From Haemophilus paraphrohaemolyticus (lineage in GTDB: Bacteria > Pseudomonadota > Gammaproteobacteria > Enterobacterales > Pasteurellaceae): a stretch of DNA of 64,000 bases. This document shows positions 35,434-42,937 of this stretch, piece after piece. The number at the start of each line of letters is the position of its first letter. Positions within the stretch are counted from its first letter, which is position 1. The notes beneath the pieces were generated by a model that did no database searches, was not told the DNA's origin, and saw only the letters and a list, made by a program, of their open reading frames with translations. A program made the translations under genes and the position numbers. The DNA is taken from contig NZ_MUXX01000012.1 in the NCBI RefSeq assembly GCF_002015045.1, positions 190,097-254,096 of the forward strand, read 5' to 3'.

Positions 35434-36786
35434 ATGAGCCTTATGCTGAACGAAACTGCACAGAACGAATTGGCACACACTATTCCAGAGCTTATCCAAT
35501 GGACGAAAGAGAGTGAGTTTTCGCTTTCGCTCCCGCCTGAACGCCTTGCCTTTTTATTGGCAATTTCTATTTTTAACCAAGAACAAATTGATGGTGAACT
35601 GCTTGAGAGTGATTTAATTGATCTGTTTCGCTATGTTTCTCAAACTTTTGAACACTCAGAATTTACGCTTTCCCAGCGTGCAAATAATGCGATCAACGAT
35701 CTGGTAAAACAACGTCTTCTAAACCGTTTTTCGAGCGAATTTACCGAAGGATTGGCGATTTATCGTGTTACCCCGCTGGCAGTCGGCATTGCGAATTACT
35801 ATATTCGGCAGCGTGAGTTTTCTAGCCTGCGTCTTTCAATTCAACTATCTATTGTGGCAAGTGAAATTCAAAAAGCATCGTTAGCCGCAGAAGAGGGCGG
35901 AGATGAACGTCATTGGCGAAATAATGTGTTTGCACCATTGAAATATTCGGTAGCAGAAATTTTCGATAGCATCGATCTTTCGCAACGCATTATGGATGAA
36001 AATCAGCACCAAATTCGTGAGAGAATTGCGAATCTTTTAAGTCAAAATTGGCACGAGGCGATCACGAGTTGTGAACAATTATTAGACGAAACATCGGGTA
36101 ATCTACGAGAGTTGCAAGATACGTTAAATGCAGCGGGCGATAAATTGCAAGCACAACTGTTGCGTATTCAAAGCTGTTTAATAGGTCGTTACGATTTAGA
36201 TTTCATCGATCAGCTAGTGGTTAATCTGCAAAATAAATTAGACCGCATTATGAGCTGGGGGCAACAGGCAATCGATCTTTGGATTGGTTACGATCGTCAC
36301 GTGCATAAATTTATTCGTACCGCGATTGATATGGATAAAAACCGTGTATTTGGTCAGCGTTTGCGTCAATCTATTCAAGATTATTTTGATGCACCTTGGA
36401 TGCTTTACACCGCGAAAGCGGAGTCGCTCCTGGATTTGCGTGATGATGAAACTGAATTTAACGAAGCAGAAGCGGTTGGTGAATTACCAACCGAGTTGGA
36501 ATATCAATCCATCGGCGATGTACAAGAGCAAATCGTGGCAATGATGCAGGCTTATCTCGCACAATTTAGAGCTGAAGGTAAGCCAATCGACTTAGGTGTG
36601 GTTTTACGTGAACAATTGGCTCGCTATCCACATTCTCGCCATTTTGATGTGGCACGTATTATCGTAGATCAAGCAAGTAAATTGGGTATGGCAAGTTTAG
36701 ATAGCCAAGCTGTTTATCCAGAATGGCAAGCGATTAACGAGACAGGGGCGGAAGTGCAAGCCCACGTGATTGATCAATACCAGTAA
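35434..36786 (+). CDS. mukF: Chromosome partition protein MukF (kleisin)
   Basis: Kleisin of the MukBEF condensin that organises and segregates the chromosome. It bridges MukB heads and binds MukE. The 450 residues are close to the E. coli length. The N-terminal winged-helix dimerisation domain ([27 protein letters not shown]), central helical region (about 170-330) and C-terminal winged helix are consistent with the family. It starts the operon mukF-mukE-(two-gene insert)-mukB; mukE begins 21 bases later. Confidence 0.95.
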
Positions 36787-36807
36787 TCAAGCAAAAAGAG
36801 AAAAATT

Positions 36808-37515
36808 ATGACAGAAAATATTCAAGATGTGATTTCAACTAAATTAGCGGTGGCGATTGCAAACCCTATTTTTCCAAGCCTTGATAGCCAATTGCGTGCA
36901 GGTCGTCATATTAGTATTGATTTGCTTGATGAACACGCATTTTTGATGGATTTCCAAGCAGAACTTGAACAGTTTTACAACCGCTATCACGTGGATCTTA
37001 TCCGTGCACCAGAAGGATTTTTCTACCTTCGCCCACGTGCTTCAACCTTGATTAACCGCGCTGCTATGTCTGAAATGGAGATGTTGGTGGGTAAAGTATT
37101 ATGCTACCTCTATTTGAGTCCAGAGCGCTTGGCACAACAAGGCGTGTTTAGCTATGATGATGTTTATGAAGAGTTGTTGAACCTTGCCGATGAACAAAAA
37201 TTGTTAAAAGCGGTAAATCCACGTTCTACAGGTTCAGATTTAGATAAGGCTAAATTGGTCGAAAAAGTGAGTGGAGCCTTGCGTCGCTTGGCTCGTATCG
37301 GAATGATTACCCGTATTGGCGATCAAAACAGCAAGAAATTTGTAATTTCCGTTTCCGTTTTCCGTTTTGGTGCGGACGTTCGCGCAGGAGATGATTACCG
37401 CGAAGCGCAATTACGCTTGATTCGTGATGGCGAGGCAACAGCCCCAAATCCTACAGCTGATACAGAAGAACAAGCGGTAGAAAACGAGGAAGATTTTGCA
37501 GAGGGTGAGGAATAA
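36808..37515 (+). CDS. mukE: Chromosome partition protein MukE
   Basis: Winged-helix protein (KITE-type) that binds MukF and modulates MukB ATPase. The 235 residues and the N-terminal [26 protein letters not shown] are characteristic, with an acidic C-terminal tail. Its stop codon TAA overlaps the ATG of the next small gene (TAATG at 37513-37517). That arrangement couples translation of MukE to the inserted gene pair instead of directly to mukB as in other gammaproteobacteria. Confidence 0.95.
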
Positions 37516-37736
37516 TGTGTACGTTAATGCAAAAAGATGTGTTGATTGAGTTAATCGCAAGCACTCAAGCAGATTTAAGTAAAATTTTAGAATTACCACT
37601 CAATGAAGATCAACTTTTTCTTAGCTGTTTAAGAGGGCAAGTATATCGTACCGAACCTGAGGAGATCGACTTCGAGTTGCTCTCAAGCCAAGTGAAAGAG
37701 ATTGGTGCTAAATACCATTCATCACGAGCAATTTAG
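37515..37736 (+). CDS. Small protein, candidate antitoxin of the zeta-like kinase
   Basis: 73 residues, acidic overall, predicted mostly helical, no family recognised. Its ATG overlaps the mukE stop by one base. A second ATG in frame at 37527 would give 69 residues. Its stop codon TAG overlaps the AGAGG ribosome binding site of the zeta-like gene, which starts 7 bases later. Small acidic protein, upstream position and translational coupling are classic for the antitoxin of an epsilon/zeta-type pair, but the sequence is not clearly epsilon or PezA. The function is inferred from context only. Confidence 0.6.
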   Translation: MCTLMQKDVLIELIASTQADLSKILELPLNEDQLFLSCLRGQVYRTEPEEIDFELLSSQVKEIGAKYHSSRAI

Positions 37737-37743
37737 AGGTTTT

Positions 37744-38451
37744 ATGCAAAACTTTGATATCAATGCTTATGATGTTGAGGCTGATGTTGAGCGAAATTTC
37801 CCTAAAATTTGGGCAAATTTGCTAGCTGAAAATCTGGTTACCCCACAAGAGTACCCTGTTGCTATTTTACTGGGTGGACAACCTGGTGCTGGAAAATCCT
37901 TCGGTTCTCTTGCAATGGGTAAGCGTTTAGATTTCAATTTGCTGATAATTAACGGAGATGAATTTCGCCCTTACCATCAGTATTACCATGAAATTTATCA
38001 GCAATATGGTAAAGAGGCTTCGAAATATACAGGCGAATTTACAGGTAAAATGGTGCAACGTATTCGAGATGAAGCTGTAGCACATCGTTTTAATTTATTG
38101 ATTGAAGGGACTTTTCGCACCGCTGATGTGCCTCTTAAAGAACTTGCAAATTTTAAGCATTATGGTTACCAAACCAATGTGTTAATTTGTACTTGCCCTA
38201 AAGAGCAGAGTTGGAACAGCACACTAAAAAGAGCAAAGGAACAAGCACTTCAAGGTATGCAACCTCGTTATGTACCAAGAGAACATTTCGACTTTGTGAT
38301 TGCTAATTTAGCAAATAATGCAGAACGCGTTTTGCAAGAGGCAAAACCGGATGGCTTTGAAGTATATTCTCGATCTCAGAAATTATTTGATATTAAAGAT
38401 ACACCAGCAGATCAATTAACCGCTACTATCAATACAGAATTAAATAGATAA
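37744..38451 (+). CDS. Zeta-toxin-like P-loop kinase
   Basis: 235 residues from ATG 37744 (a GTG at 37702 overlaps the small gene and is rejected). Family features of zeta/PezT UDP-N-acetylglucosamine kinases are visible: Walker [10 protein letters not shown] (44-52), the acidic substrate motif [10 protein letters not shown] (69-78, with D72 as the likely base), and [11 protein letters not shown] (120-130), where R125 is the expected catalytic arginine. Members phosphorylate a cell-wall precursor and block peptidoglycan synthesis unless held by an antitoxin. The gene lies between mukE and mukB, 13 bases before mukB. All core residues appear intact, so it is probably active; the true substrate is unknown. 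Confidence 0.82.
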
Positions 38452-38464
38452 AGGAAAAATCCTA

Positions 38465-41400
38465 ATGAGTAACACGGATTTAATTTTAGAAGAGAACGCA
38501 CAAGAGACAATGATTGTGCAACCGACAATTCAGCCACAACAGATTGAACGCGGCAAATTCCGCTCCTTAACACTGATTAACTGGAACGGTTTTTTTGCTC
38601 GTACTTTTGATTTAGATGAATTGGTCACCACGCTTTCGGGCGGTAATGGTGCGGGTAAATCCACCACGATGGCAGGTTTTGTGACTGCCTTAATTCCTGA
38701 TTTAACGCTTTTAAACTTCCGTAATACCACTGAAGCAGGTTCAACTTCGAGTTCTCGCGATAAAGGGTTATACGGTAAATTAAAAGCGGGTGTTTGTTAT
38801 GCGGTGTTGGAAAGCGTGAACTCTCGTGGTCAGCGTGTTATCACAGGCGTGCGCTTGCAACAGATTGCTGGGCGAGACAAAAAAGTGGATATTCGTCCAT
38901 TTTCATTACAAAACGTACCCTTTGATCAGCAGATTATCTATGTTCTGACTGAACAAATGGGCGTTAAAGCACGCGTGCTGGCATTGAATGAAGTAAAAGA
39001 AAAGTTTGAGCAATCGGACGTTCAATTCAAGCAATATCAATCCATTACCGATTACCACAGCTTTATGTTTGATGTGGGCGTATTGCCGAAACGTTTACGT
39101 TCCGCAAGCGATCGTAGTAAGTTCTACAAATTGATCGAAGCATCGCTTTACGGCGGTATTTCAAGTGTGATTACCAAGTCGCTACGTGATTACTTATTGC
39201 CAGAAAATACGGGCGTTCGCCAAGCATTCCAAGATATGGAATCGGCATTGCGTGAAAACCGTATGACGCTTGAAGCGATCAAAGTTACGCAGTCAGATCG
39301 CGATATGTTTAAGCAGTTGATTACCCACTCAACCGATTATGTCTCGGCGGACTATATGCGTCATGCAAACGAGCGTTTAGGAAATATTCAACAGGCGTTG
39401 GGTTTCCGTCAAGCGTGGGCGAATTTAAAATCGAAGCGTGAGCTTGAGCAACATCGTTTAGTAGAATTTAGCCGTGAATCGGCGGAAATTGAGGCGACTG
39501 AACAAGGACTAGAGGCAGAATTTAATTCTGCGAACGATCATTTAAACTTGGTGCAAAATGCGTTACGCCATCAAGAGAAAGTAGAACGTTATCAAGATGA
39601 CGTTGAAGAGCTCAACGAGAAGCTTGAAGAGCAACAGATGGTGATTGAGGAAGTTTCTGAAGCGGTGGAAATGGCTCAACACCAAGCTGATGATGCGGAA
39701 GCACACGTGGAAGATTTGCGTGCTCAGCTTGCGGATTATCAGCAAGCATTAGATGCTCAACAAACACGTGCTTTGCAATATCAACAAGCGGTTGCTGCCC
39801 TTGAAAAAGCAAAACAGCTTTCAGGTTTGGCGAATTTAGACTTACACAATATTGAAGATTATCACTCAGAATTTTCAGCCCAAGCCGATGAAATTACCGA
39901 CCAAGTGTTCGACTTAGAACAGCGCTTATCTGTTTCAGATATGGCGAAAGAGCAGTTTGAAAAAGCCTATGAATTAGTTTGCAAAATTGTGGGCGAAACA
40001 GACCGCTTGCGAGCGTTTGAGGAAGCTAAATCACTGCTTAATGCTTTCCCAGAACAAAAAATGCGTGCGACACAAGCGGTCGGATTACGCCAGAAATTGC
40101 ACGAGCTTGAACAACGCTTGCAACAACAACAGCAAGCAAAGCGCTTGTTGGCAGAGCTTAATCAAAGAACGCAAAGTGAGTTTAGCCACGCAGACGAGCT
40201 TGAAAATCACTTTGAAGAGCAACAGGCAAAACGCGAAGATTTAGAAACGGAACTTGCCGAGCTTGTTGAAGTTCGTTCAAGCCAACGCCAACAGCTACAA
40301 CAGCTCCAAAATCAATATAACCAATTGGCAAAAAATGCTCCTGCGTGGCACACTGCTCAATCTGCTTTAACCCGTTTGGAAGAGCAGTGTGGCGAAACAT
40401 TTGAAGTAAGCCAAGCGGTGCTGCAATTTATGCAAAATATGCTGGCAAAAGAGCGTGAAGCAACGCTTGCTCGTGATGCGTTGGCACGCAAAGAACAGCA
40501 ATTAAGTGATGAGATTTCACAACTGAGCCAGCCAGATGGTTCGGAAGATCCGCGTTTAAATCAGCTGGCAGAACGCTTTGGTGGCGTGTTGCTTTCTGAG
40601 CTTTATGATGATGTATCACTTGAAGATGCCCCTTATTTCTCGGCATTATATGGCGAGGCTCGTCACGCGATTGTGGTACGCGATTTAGAGACCGTAAAAG
40701 CACAGCTCGAAACCTTAGATGATTGCCCAGACGATCTCTATTTAATCGAAGGCGATCCAACTGCCTTTGATGACGCTGTCTTTAGTGCTGATGAGTTGAA
40801 TGAGGGCGTAGTAGTAAAAGTTTCAGAGCGTCAATGGCGTTATTCGAAATTCCCTGCTGTGCCGTTGTTTGGTCGTGCCGCTCGTGAAAAACATGTTGAA
40901 GTATTGAAAGCTGAACGCGATGAAGTGGCGGAAAAACATGCAGAACTTTCGTTTGATGTGCAAAAATGCCAACGCTTGCATCAACATTTAAGCCAATTTG
41001 TTGGCACGCATTTAAATATTGCGTTCCAAGAAAACCCAGAAGAGGCGATGCAAGCGGTTGTGGCAGAGCGTAGCGAAATTGAGCGTGAGCTTAATCAAGC
41101 GGTCGGAAATGAACAGCAACTTCGCAATCAATTGGATGCGGTCAAAATACAATTGCAATTGTTAAGCAAAATTTTACCGCTTGCCGATTTACTTGATGAC
41201 GATGTGTTAATTGAGCGTGCAGAAATTTGCCGTGAACAATTGGCGGAAGCGGAAGATGATGAGCAATTTGTGCGTCAATATGGCAACTATATCGCTCAGC
41301 TTGAGCCAATTGCCAGCTCACTTCGTAACGATCCAATCCGTTTTGAAGAGCTGGAAACGGAATACAATCAGGCGAAACAGACCCAAAAAGCATTGCAACA

Positions 41401-42937
41401 AAAGGTGTTTGCGCTTTCAGATGTAATGCAACGCCGTGTACATTTCAGTTATGAAGATGCGGTGGGAGCGGAAGGTTCTCGCTTAACCGAACAGCTACGA
41501 GCGGAGTTGGAACAGGCTCAACAAATGCGAGAGCAGGCTCGTCATCAATTGCGTCAAGCACAATCGCAATACAGCCAATACCATCAAACCTTAACCGGGT
41601 TACGCAGTGCCTATGAGGTGAAAAATCAGATGTTGGCAGAGCTTATCCGTGAGATGGATATGCTGGGGGTACGTGGTGATGCACAGGCGGAAGAGCGTGC
41701 TATTGAGCGGCGTGAAGAGTTACATCAACGCTTAAGCCAACAACGTGCGCGCAAAACGTTCCTTGATAAACAGTTGGGCAGTATTGAAGCAGAAATTGAG
41801 AACCTTAGCCGCGAATTGCGTAAAGTTGAACGTGATTATAAAAATCAACGTGCCACTGTGGTAGCAGCGAAAGCTAGCTGGTGCTTGGTGTTACAACTTT
41901 CTCGCAACAGCGATGTAGAAAAACGCTTGAACCGCCGTGAATTGGCGTATCATTCATCGGATGAATTGCGTTCGATTTCGGATAAAGCGTTGGGTGCATT
42001 ACGTACCGCTGTGGCGAATAACGAATACTTACGTGATAGCTTGCGAGCATCTGAAGATAGCCGTAAACCAGAAACGAAAGTAGCATTCTTTATTGAAGTT
42101 TATCGCCATTTACGTGAGCGTATTCGCCAAGATATTATCAAAACAGATGACCCAATTGATGCGATTGAGCAGATGGAAATTGAGCTTTCTCGCTTAACCA
42201 GTGAACTGACGAATCGTGAGAAAAAATTGGCGATCAGTGCAGAAAGTGTGGCAAATATTTTACGTAAAACCATTCAGCGTGAGCAAAATCGTATTCTTCA
42301 ATTGAACCAAGGTTTACAAAATATCGCTTTCGGTCAAGTAAAAGGGGTGCGTTTAGATGTGAAAATTCGCGATACACACGCGATGTTGTTGAATGCATTG
42401 AGTCAAGATCGCGAACAGCACAAAGATCTGTTTGAGAGCGAAAAACTCAGCTTCTCAGAAGCACTTGCGATGTTGCATAAACGTGTGAACCCTCATATTG
42501 ATATGGGACAACGTACACCGCAAACCATTGGCGAAGAGTTGTTAGATTACCGCAATTACCTCGATCTAGAAGTCGAAACCGACCGTGGTGCAGATGGCTG
42601 GCAACGTGCGGAAAGTAGTGCACTTTCAACGGGTGAGGCGATCGGTACGGGGATGTCTATCCTGTTAATGGTCGTGCAAAGCTGGGAAGAAGAATCTCGT
42701 CGCCTACGAGCGAAAGATATTCTCCCTTGTCGCTTGCTATTCTTGGATGAAGCTGCGCGACTTGATGCGATGTCTATCAATACGCTCTTCGAGCTTTGCG
42801 GGCGCTTGGATATGCAGCTGCTAATTGCTGCTCCAGAAAATATCAGCCCAGAACGCGGTACGACTTATAAGTTAGTGCGTAAGATCACCAATAACCAAGA
42901 GTTGGTTGAAGTGGTTGGATTGAAAGGGTTTGCGTAA
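38465..42937 (+). CDS. mukB: Chromosome partition protein MukB
   Basis: SMC-like ATPase of the MukBEF condensin. The 1490 residues are typical. Walker [10 protein letters not shown] at 59-67; long Gln/Glu-rich coiled coils (about 300-650 and 800-1200) flank the hinge near residues 650-790. At the C terminus are the ABC signature [11 protein letters not shown] and Walker [12 protein letters not shown]. It follows the zeta-like gene by 13 bases with an AAAGGA ribosome binding site, so its mRNA must pass through the inserted pair unless an internal promoter exists. Exact uptake signals occur inside the coiled-coil coding region. Confidence 0.98.

Follow-up and report, generated by a model that had tools for sequence, protein, structure and literature searches.

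Why would a gene for a possible cell-wall poison stand inside the operon of the chromosome condensin? The question is raised by a stretch of 64,000 nucleotides from Haemophilus paraphrohaemolyticus (contig NZ_MUXX01000012.1 of assembly GCF_002015045.1, positions 190,097 to 254,096 of the forward strand; hereafter the window), in which a small open reading frame (ORF) and a zeta-type kinase gene separate mukE from mukB. I consider it probable that the two genes form a toxin-antitoxin module that moves horizontally and is carried as co-directional cargo in mukFEB. Within the epsilon/zeta-PezAT superfamily it is probably a relative of the Escherichia coli protein EzeT, split in two and acting in trans. 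Such a module would be sheltered addiction or defence cargo, which I favour over a regulator that couples wall growth with segregation.

The inserted pair

The kinase (235 amino acids, 37744..38451, + strand) is the proposed toxin. It belongs to the zeta family, as the first-pass annotation of this DNA had claimed: it scores 157.8 bits against the Zeta_toxin model PF06414 (E 3.1e-46), for which the curated cut-off is 22.3, and its residues 35-220 and 35-235 align to PezT (2p5t, E 4.6e-37) and to zeta (1gvn, E 9.2e-28), respectively. In the alignment with 1gvn, K51, D72, T123 and T126 of the kinase fall on K46, D67, T118 and T121 of zeta, where K46 is the Walker lysine. The first three are invariant across 25 aligned kinase sequences, the window included, and T126 is nearly so. 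In the accessible part of PMC3062530, Asp67/Asp66 of zeta is the catalytic base, Thr118 a substrate contact and Thr121 a conserved residue. Since the catalytic residues are conserved, and given the biochemistry of PezT and zeta, the enzyme is expected to phosphorylate UDP-N-acetylglucosamine (UDP-GlcNAc), and a kinase producing UDP-GlcNAc-3-phosphate is predicted. The cut-off of NCBIfam's PezT equivalog model (NF041574) is not reached by the kinase (131.5 vs 470 bits). Membership of the ng_zeta1 subclass was rejected, as the P-loop lysine is residue 51 in the window and Lys115 in ng_zeta1, whose P-loop lies far from the N-terminus according to the available text of PMC5923241.

The small ORF (73 codons, 37515..37736, + strand) is the candidate antitoxin, which by homology corresponds to the antitoxin domain of an EzeT-type protein, split off and acting in trans. 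It finds no match in Pfam, NCBIfam or the PDB sequences. It is a real gene and not a chance frame, because a database search returned 18 relatives, and 17 aligned sequences agree throughout at 30 of the 73 positions. Three helices are predicted, and no DNA-binding domain is recognisable. Members of its family stand directly 5' of zeta genes in Actinobacillus minor, in Gallibacterium and Neisseria and on two plasmids of Pasteurellaceae, in the same order (loci L001, L039, L005, L006, L078 and L079), and in 11 of 138 protein records a homologue forms the N-terminus of a natural zeta fusion. The E. coli fusion L077, annotated solely as a zeta toxin family protein, is aligned with the small ORF over residues 3-78 (envelope to 82), with E 1.5e-9 for an iterated profile (best of 2200 shuffles E 0.021) and E 0.004 before iteration (best shuffle 0.075). 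The first 82 residues of EzeT are described, in the part of PMC4803016 that is accessible, as an antitoxin able to work in trans, and EzeT deprived of this domain is reported to poison cells only below 30 C. I infer that L077 fits EzeT. The earlier proposal that the small ORF is the partner of the kinase is thus supported by the pairing of its family upstream of zeta genes and by the fusions.

It is therefore very hard to believe that the kinase is inactive or acts on some other substrate, and that the small ORF does not serve as its antitoxin. Zeta-like folds do include other kinases, but the Walker lysine, the catalytic aspartate and the substrate-contact threonine are all invariant, and elsewhere the two proteins are fused or paired as conserved neighbours.

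The joins are as tight as the first-pass annotation had described them, and both genes lie exactly where it placed them. The TAA stop of mukE (235 amino acids, 36808..37515, + strand; Pfam MukE, E 1.5e-109) occupies 37513-37515, and its final base is the first base of the small-ORF ATG at 37515. At the other end of the small ORF, the stop codon (37734-37736) runs into AGAGG, a ribosome-binding-like site for the kinase (37735..37739, + strand), from which four bases lead to the kinase ATG at 37744. An alternative start of the kinase, a TTG upstream at 37702, would give 249 amino acids; as close relatives measure 230-237 amino acids, I take the ATG as the start. The kinase stop lies at 38449-38451, and after 13 bases mukB begins with the ATG at 38465 (1490 amino acids, 38465..42937, + strand; Pfam MukB, E 2.2e-106; NCBIfam MukB, 2246.8 bits). 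Upstream lies mukF (450 amino acids, 35434..36786, + strand; Pfam KicB, MukF_M and MukF_C; NCBIfam MukF, 739 bits vs a cut-off of 407). All three muk genes are intact and far over the curated Pfam and NCBIfam cut-offs.

Among known systems, EzeT (Rocker and Meinhart 2015; as far as the consulted parts of PMC4826407 and PMC4803016 go) shares with the pair the zeta-type kinase domain and a homologous N-terminal antitoxin region; however, EzeT is a single self-inhibiting polypeptide, whereas the toxin and antitoxin candidates of the window are two separate ORFs. Pairs on plasmids of Pasteurella multocida (NZ_CP143491) and Haemophilus parainfluenzae (NZ_CP063114) have the same order, with small ORFs 49-51% and kinases 50-56% identical to those of the window, but they differ in being plasmid-borne, in standing behind ssb and a helix-turn-helix gene and in their longer kinases. 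As to PezAT of Streptococcus pneumoniae and epsilon/zeta of pSM19035, neither PezA nor epsilon matches the small ORF in sequence, and the small ORF lacks the helix-turn-helix that PezA has. The ng_epsilon1/ng_zeta1 system of Neisseria gonorrhoeae likewise consists of a zeta-like kinase gene and a small partner, to judge from the accessible text of PMC5923241.

The components are of known kinds. New, as far as the open literature goes, are the split EzeT-like arrangement, the antitoxin family that no model describes and the setting in a condensin operon: no report of such an arrangement turned up there, the scope of the search excluding subscription papers. In the part of PMC4996451 available, MukFEB is named solely as Dam-associated. 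The small-protein family, called hypothetical in named records and unmatched by Pfam and NCBIfam models, thereby acquires a likely antitoxin role, and the self-inhibiting EzeT fusion is linked to a two-gene form.

Relatives of the small ORF also occur apart from zeta genes. It matches 53 plasmid records, nearly all from Pasteurellaceae, and on small plasmids relatives with no neighbouring zeta gene adjoin replication or mobilisation genes (L020, L024, L025, L031, L080); in L080 the relative overlaps a gene annotated as antitoxin VbhA family. These zeta-less relatives might be orphan antitoxins that guard against zeta-bearing plasmids. In genome G038, an ORF of 94 amino acids (L015, 2119-2403) lies 5' of a distant zeta-like gene and is matched by the small-ORF profile at a borderline E of 0.004-0.006.

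Gain and loss at the mukE-mukB junction

The insertion was mapped by comparing 140 Pasteurellaceae genomes, in which the mukF-mukE, mukE-mukB and ruvA-ruvB gaps were measured from domain match to domain match by a script working on transcribed match coordinates. Both mukE and mukB are found in 139 genomes, adjacent on one strand in 138, and in 135 of these no insert above 400 base pairs (bp) separates the two domain matches. The claim that the two genes are normally neighbours and that the pair has been inserted is therefore borne out, with a patchy presence. In E. coli, 5374 of 5426 genomes match the stretch spanning mukF-mukE-mukB, and each of 60 evenly taken rows is one unbroken piece (in the remaining rows inserts below about 1.15 kb would not show); in an E. 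coli record mukE and mukB share a single base.

The three genomes with a wider gap hold three different things. Actinobacillus minor (G001), whose MukB has 82% identity with the window's, carries the same pair (small ORF 72% identical over 69 residues, kinase 75% over 227). G010 has a YhcG/DUF1016 nuclease in place of the pair. G086 holds a relic, in which pieces of the small ORF (1-15, 42-53) and of the kinase (19-54, 201-235) are still discernible. In a tree of MukE plus MukB from the window and 42 genomes the insert bearers are scattered, with the window on a long lone branch. The sister of A. minor (G071, support 0.999) has no mukE-mukB insert, nor have the tree neighbours of G086 (G138, G051 and G052, support 0.59).

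The start of mukB adds to this pattern. Between A. minor and its sister the first ~25 mukB codons are divergent (51/100 bases), whereas the other blocks, the ragged last one excepted, agree at 82-99/100; in these first codons A. minor is similar to the window and to G053 and G054. From the end of the kinase through the ribosome site to the start of mukB, the window reads GGAAAAATCCTNATGNNNAACACGGATTT (38453..38481, + strand), and this junction occurs in three of the 140 genomes (A. minor, G053 and G054), always at mukB and with zero mismatches. In local alignments to the window's kinase end plus junction, G053 scores 77, G054 64 and G086 41, with a shuffle maximum of 29 each, whereas nine other mukB junctions score 18-24, none over its own shuffle maximum. 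The match in G053 takes in a stretch resembling the kinase tail, and the pair has apparently left a scar there; G054 alone is no proof of a former kinase, because its match spans solely the ribosome site and the mukB start. The simplest reading of these sequences is that the pair has been repeatedly gained and lost, travelling with the 5' end of mukB through recombination in the flanks. Elsewhere, the small ORF of A. minor, read by eye, is one residue away from records named G. parasuis (P0126, P0130), a near-identity that suggests a recent transfer. The pezT genes of G. parasuis are catalogued with no muk named in the portion of PMC6211672 available.

In the window itself the pair seems to be under purifying selection. 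Measured against A. minor, the small ORF has a dN of 0.18 (no dS could be calculated) and the kinase one of 0.19, with a nearly saturated dS of 1.74. For mukE and mukB dN is 0.12-0.13, and both inserted genes accordingly look maintained. A decaying pair was rejected for the window by this comparison, though it holds for G086. The GC content of the pair (0.37-0.38) is lower than that of mukE and mukB (0.44-0.45).

A domesticated regulator, in which the kinase adjusts the flux of UDP-N-acetylglucosamine and thereby keeps wall growth in step with condensin expression and segregation, would agree with the tight packing against mukE and mukB and with the fact that the window and A. minor have both inserted genes in conserved form. 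However, the pair is absent from the sister of A. minor and from nearly all other Pasteurellaceae, has relatives on plasmids, has left a relic and a scar in other lineages and shares its operon with unrelated cargo in other genomes. I dropped this regulator as the leading explanation in view of the patchy, mobile distribution, and consider it most unlikely; of the two functions suggested at first pass, the addiction module fits better and the coupling of wall growth to segregation is unsupported.

A phage origin of the pair was also rejected. A DNA search of a phage collection gave a single record, OR845762.1, which has 1,655 bases and no annotation, is named as an Escherichia phage and may be host DNA; it matches the muk stretch of the window, with 68% identity over 36% of the query. 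With the kinase protein as query six phage records were found, with 22-39% identity among the five matches listed. In a named genome collection the single kinase gave no match, and an alignment query found eight loci.

The muk operon as a landing site

Passenger genes also enter the operon one gap upstream. Between mukF and mukE, 25 of the 138 genomes have an insert above 400 bp, the smallest being 697, and the long cargo ORFs are co-directional with muk. Defence-type cargo is present in 11 of the 25: HaeII restriction-modification (R-M) in G066 and G067, Septu PtuAB in G001 and G060, YhcG/PDC-S02 in G058, G004 and also G086, an EcoRII-C-like R-M system in G030, type IIG R-M with a specificity subunit in G052 and G086, HinP1I R-M in G104 and AbiEi/AbiEii in G114. 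At least one cargo protein was scanned for families in nine of the 11; for G060 and G067, and for the type IIG genes of G086, near-identical ORFs gave the assignment. An earlier description of HaeII genes next to muk genes may exist. The other 14 genomes carry non-defence cargo (Aas-like in seven, SLAC1 in three, DUF2853 in two, AlkD and SIMPL in one each), assigned by scans in G020, G051, G087, G112, G113 and G115 (a protease-like ORF) and by ORF similarity in the remainder.

As a control, no insert was found between ruvA and ruvB in any of the 135 genomes in which these genes are neighbours; they are not in five rearranged genomes (G112-G116). The difference from mukF-mukE is significant (Fisher p 1.9e-8), in a comparison that ignores kinship, some inserts being shared by descent. 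A second control, ftsA-ftsZ, read by eye in 140 genomes, shows ~730 extra bases in five genomes and ~200 in one more, the former lying between the FtsA and FtsZ domain matches of G027, G028, G029, G031 and G033, so muk is not the only locus with events of this kind. The muk operon is a favoured insertion site, though not for defence genes only, and a condensin operon thus becomes a recurrent home of defence and other cargo.

These figures bear on whether the pair is a neutral passenger, inserted by chance at a tolerated junction and expressed by read-through, with no positional advantage to either partner. The diversity of the cargo, with 14 of the 25 mukF-mukE inserts non-defence, and the repeated losses would suit it. 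Nevertheless, the pair is conserved in sequence, the same module recurs at the same junction in non-sister lineages and ruvA-ruvB has no inserts in 135 genomes, and I hold a neutral passenger to be rather unlikely.

The presence of Septu, AbiE, R-M and YhcG/PDC-S02 in relatives, together with the kinship of MukBEF to Wadjet-type defence condensins, could also point to an anti-phage or anti-plasmid unit that acts jointly with MukBEF, for example by sensing foreign DNA through it. There is, however, no sign of an interaction with Muk proteins in the present data, the pair exists without muk on plasmids and elsewhere, and the LmuB match that PADLOC gives for the kinase is weak (E 0.009); I give such a joint action very little credence. 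As passenger genes come and go repeatedly in the muk operons of relatives, the sheltered selfish or defensive cargo proposed at the outset is preferred to a built-in regulator.

Close zeta relatives occur in six genomes. One lies in muk, that of Gallibacterium (G003) ~1.3 kb away from mukF and that of G017 ~2.8 kb past mukB. The last belongs to a small defence cluster beside muk (L040, 8170-11825), in which mukB is closely followed by a type IV restriction gene, a fused small-ORF/zeta gene and, on the opposite strand, a reverse transcriptase gene (retron/DRT-like). Directly 3' of mukB in G010 lie a gene for a PtuA-like ATPase and the first part of an HNH-like gene (L035, 9070-10501), and cargo therefore gathers downstream of the operon too.

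Expression and possible benefit

How would such a pair work at this site? From the spacing of the genes, transcription of muk would run on through both. The 73-residue helical protein, made just ahead of the kinase, would bind and inactivate it, as its homology to the EzeT antitoxin domain suggests; were the antitoxin lost or degraded, the kinase would phosphorylate UDP-N-acetylglucosamine and wall synthesis would stop, in line with its catalytic residues and with the biochemistry of PezT and zeta. Losing or silencing the segment would then penalise the cell, and growth arrest under phage attack or stress is possible. Since the antitoxin candidate has no recognisable DNA-binding domain, expression of the pair is probably governed by the host operon.

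A broader idea is that mukFEB is a privileged shelter in Pasteurellaceae, hard to lose or to silence, which repeatedly captures self-contained addiction and defence genes of the same orientation. Homologous recombination in the conserved muk flanks would spread them, probably in the course of natural transformation, and the split EzeT-like pair would be the extreme case. I regard this as possible but doubtful. If true, the condensin operon itself could not be lost or silenced without damage to the wall. If the genes are co-expressed, the locus offers a direct test of whether a core operon gains stability from a toxin-antitoxin pair embedded in it.

When 36700-38700 was scanned for consensus signals, no terminators (1.6 expected) and four promoter-like sites (4.0 expected) were found. 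One of these lies inside mukE on the + strand (37129-37158, 10/12 matches), so an internal promoter is possible. The operon is itself split in G116 (L037, L038), where mukF-mukE lies ~0.47 Mb from mukB and a transposase-like ORF follows mukE.
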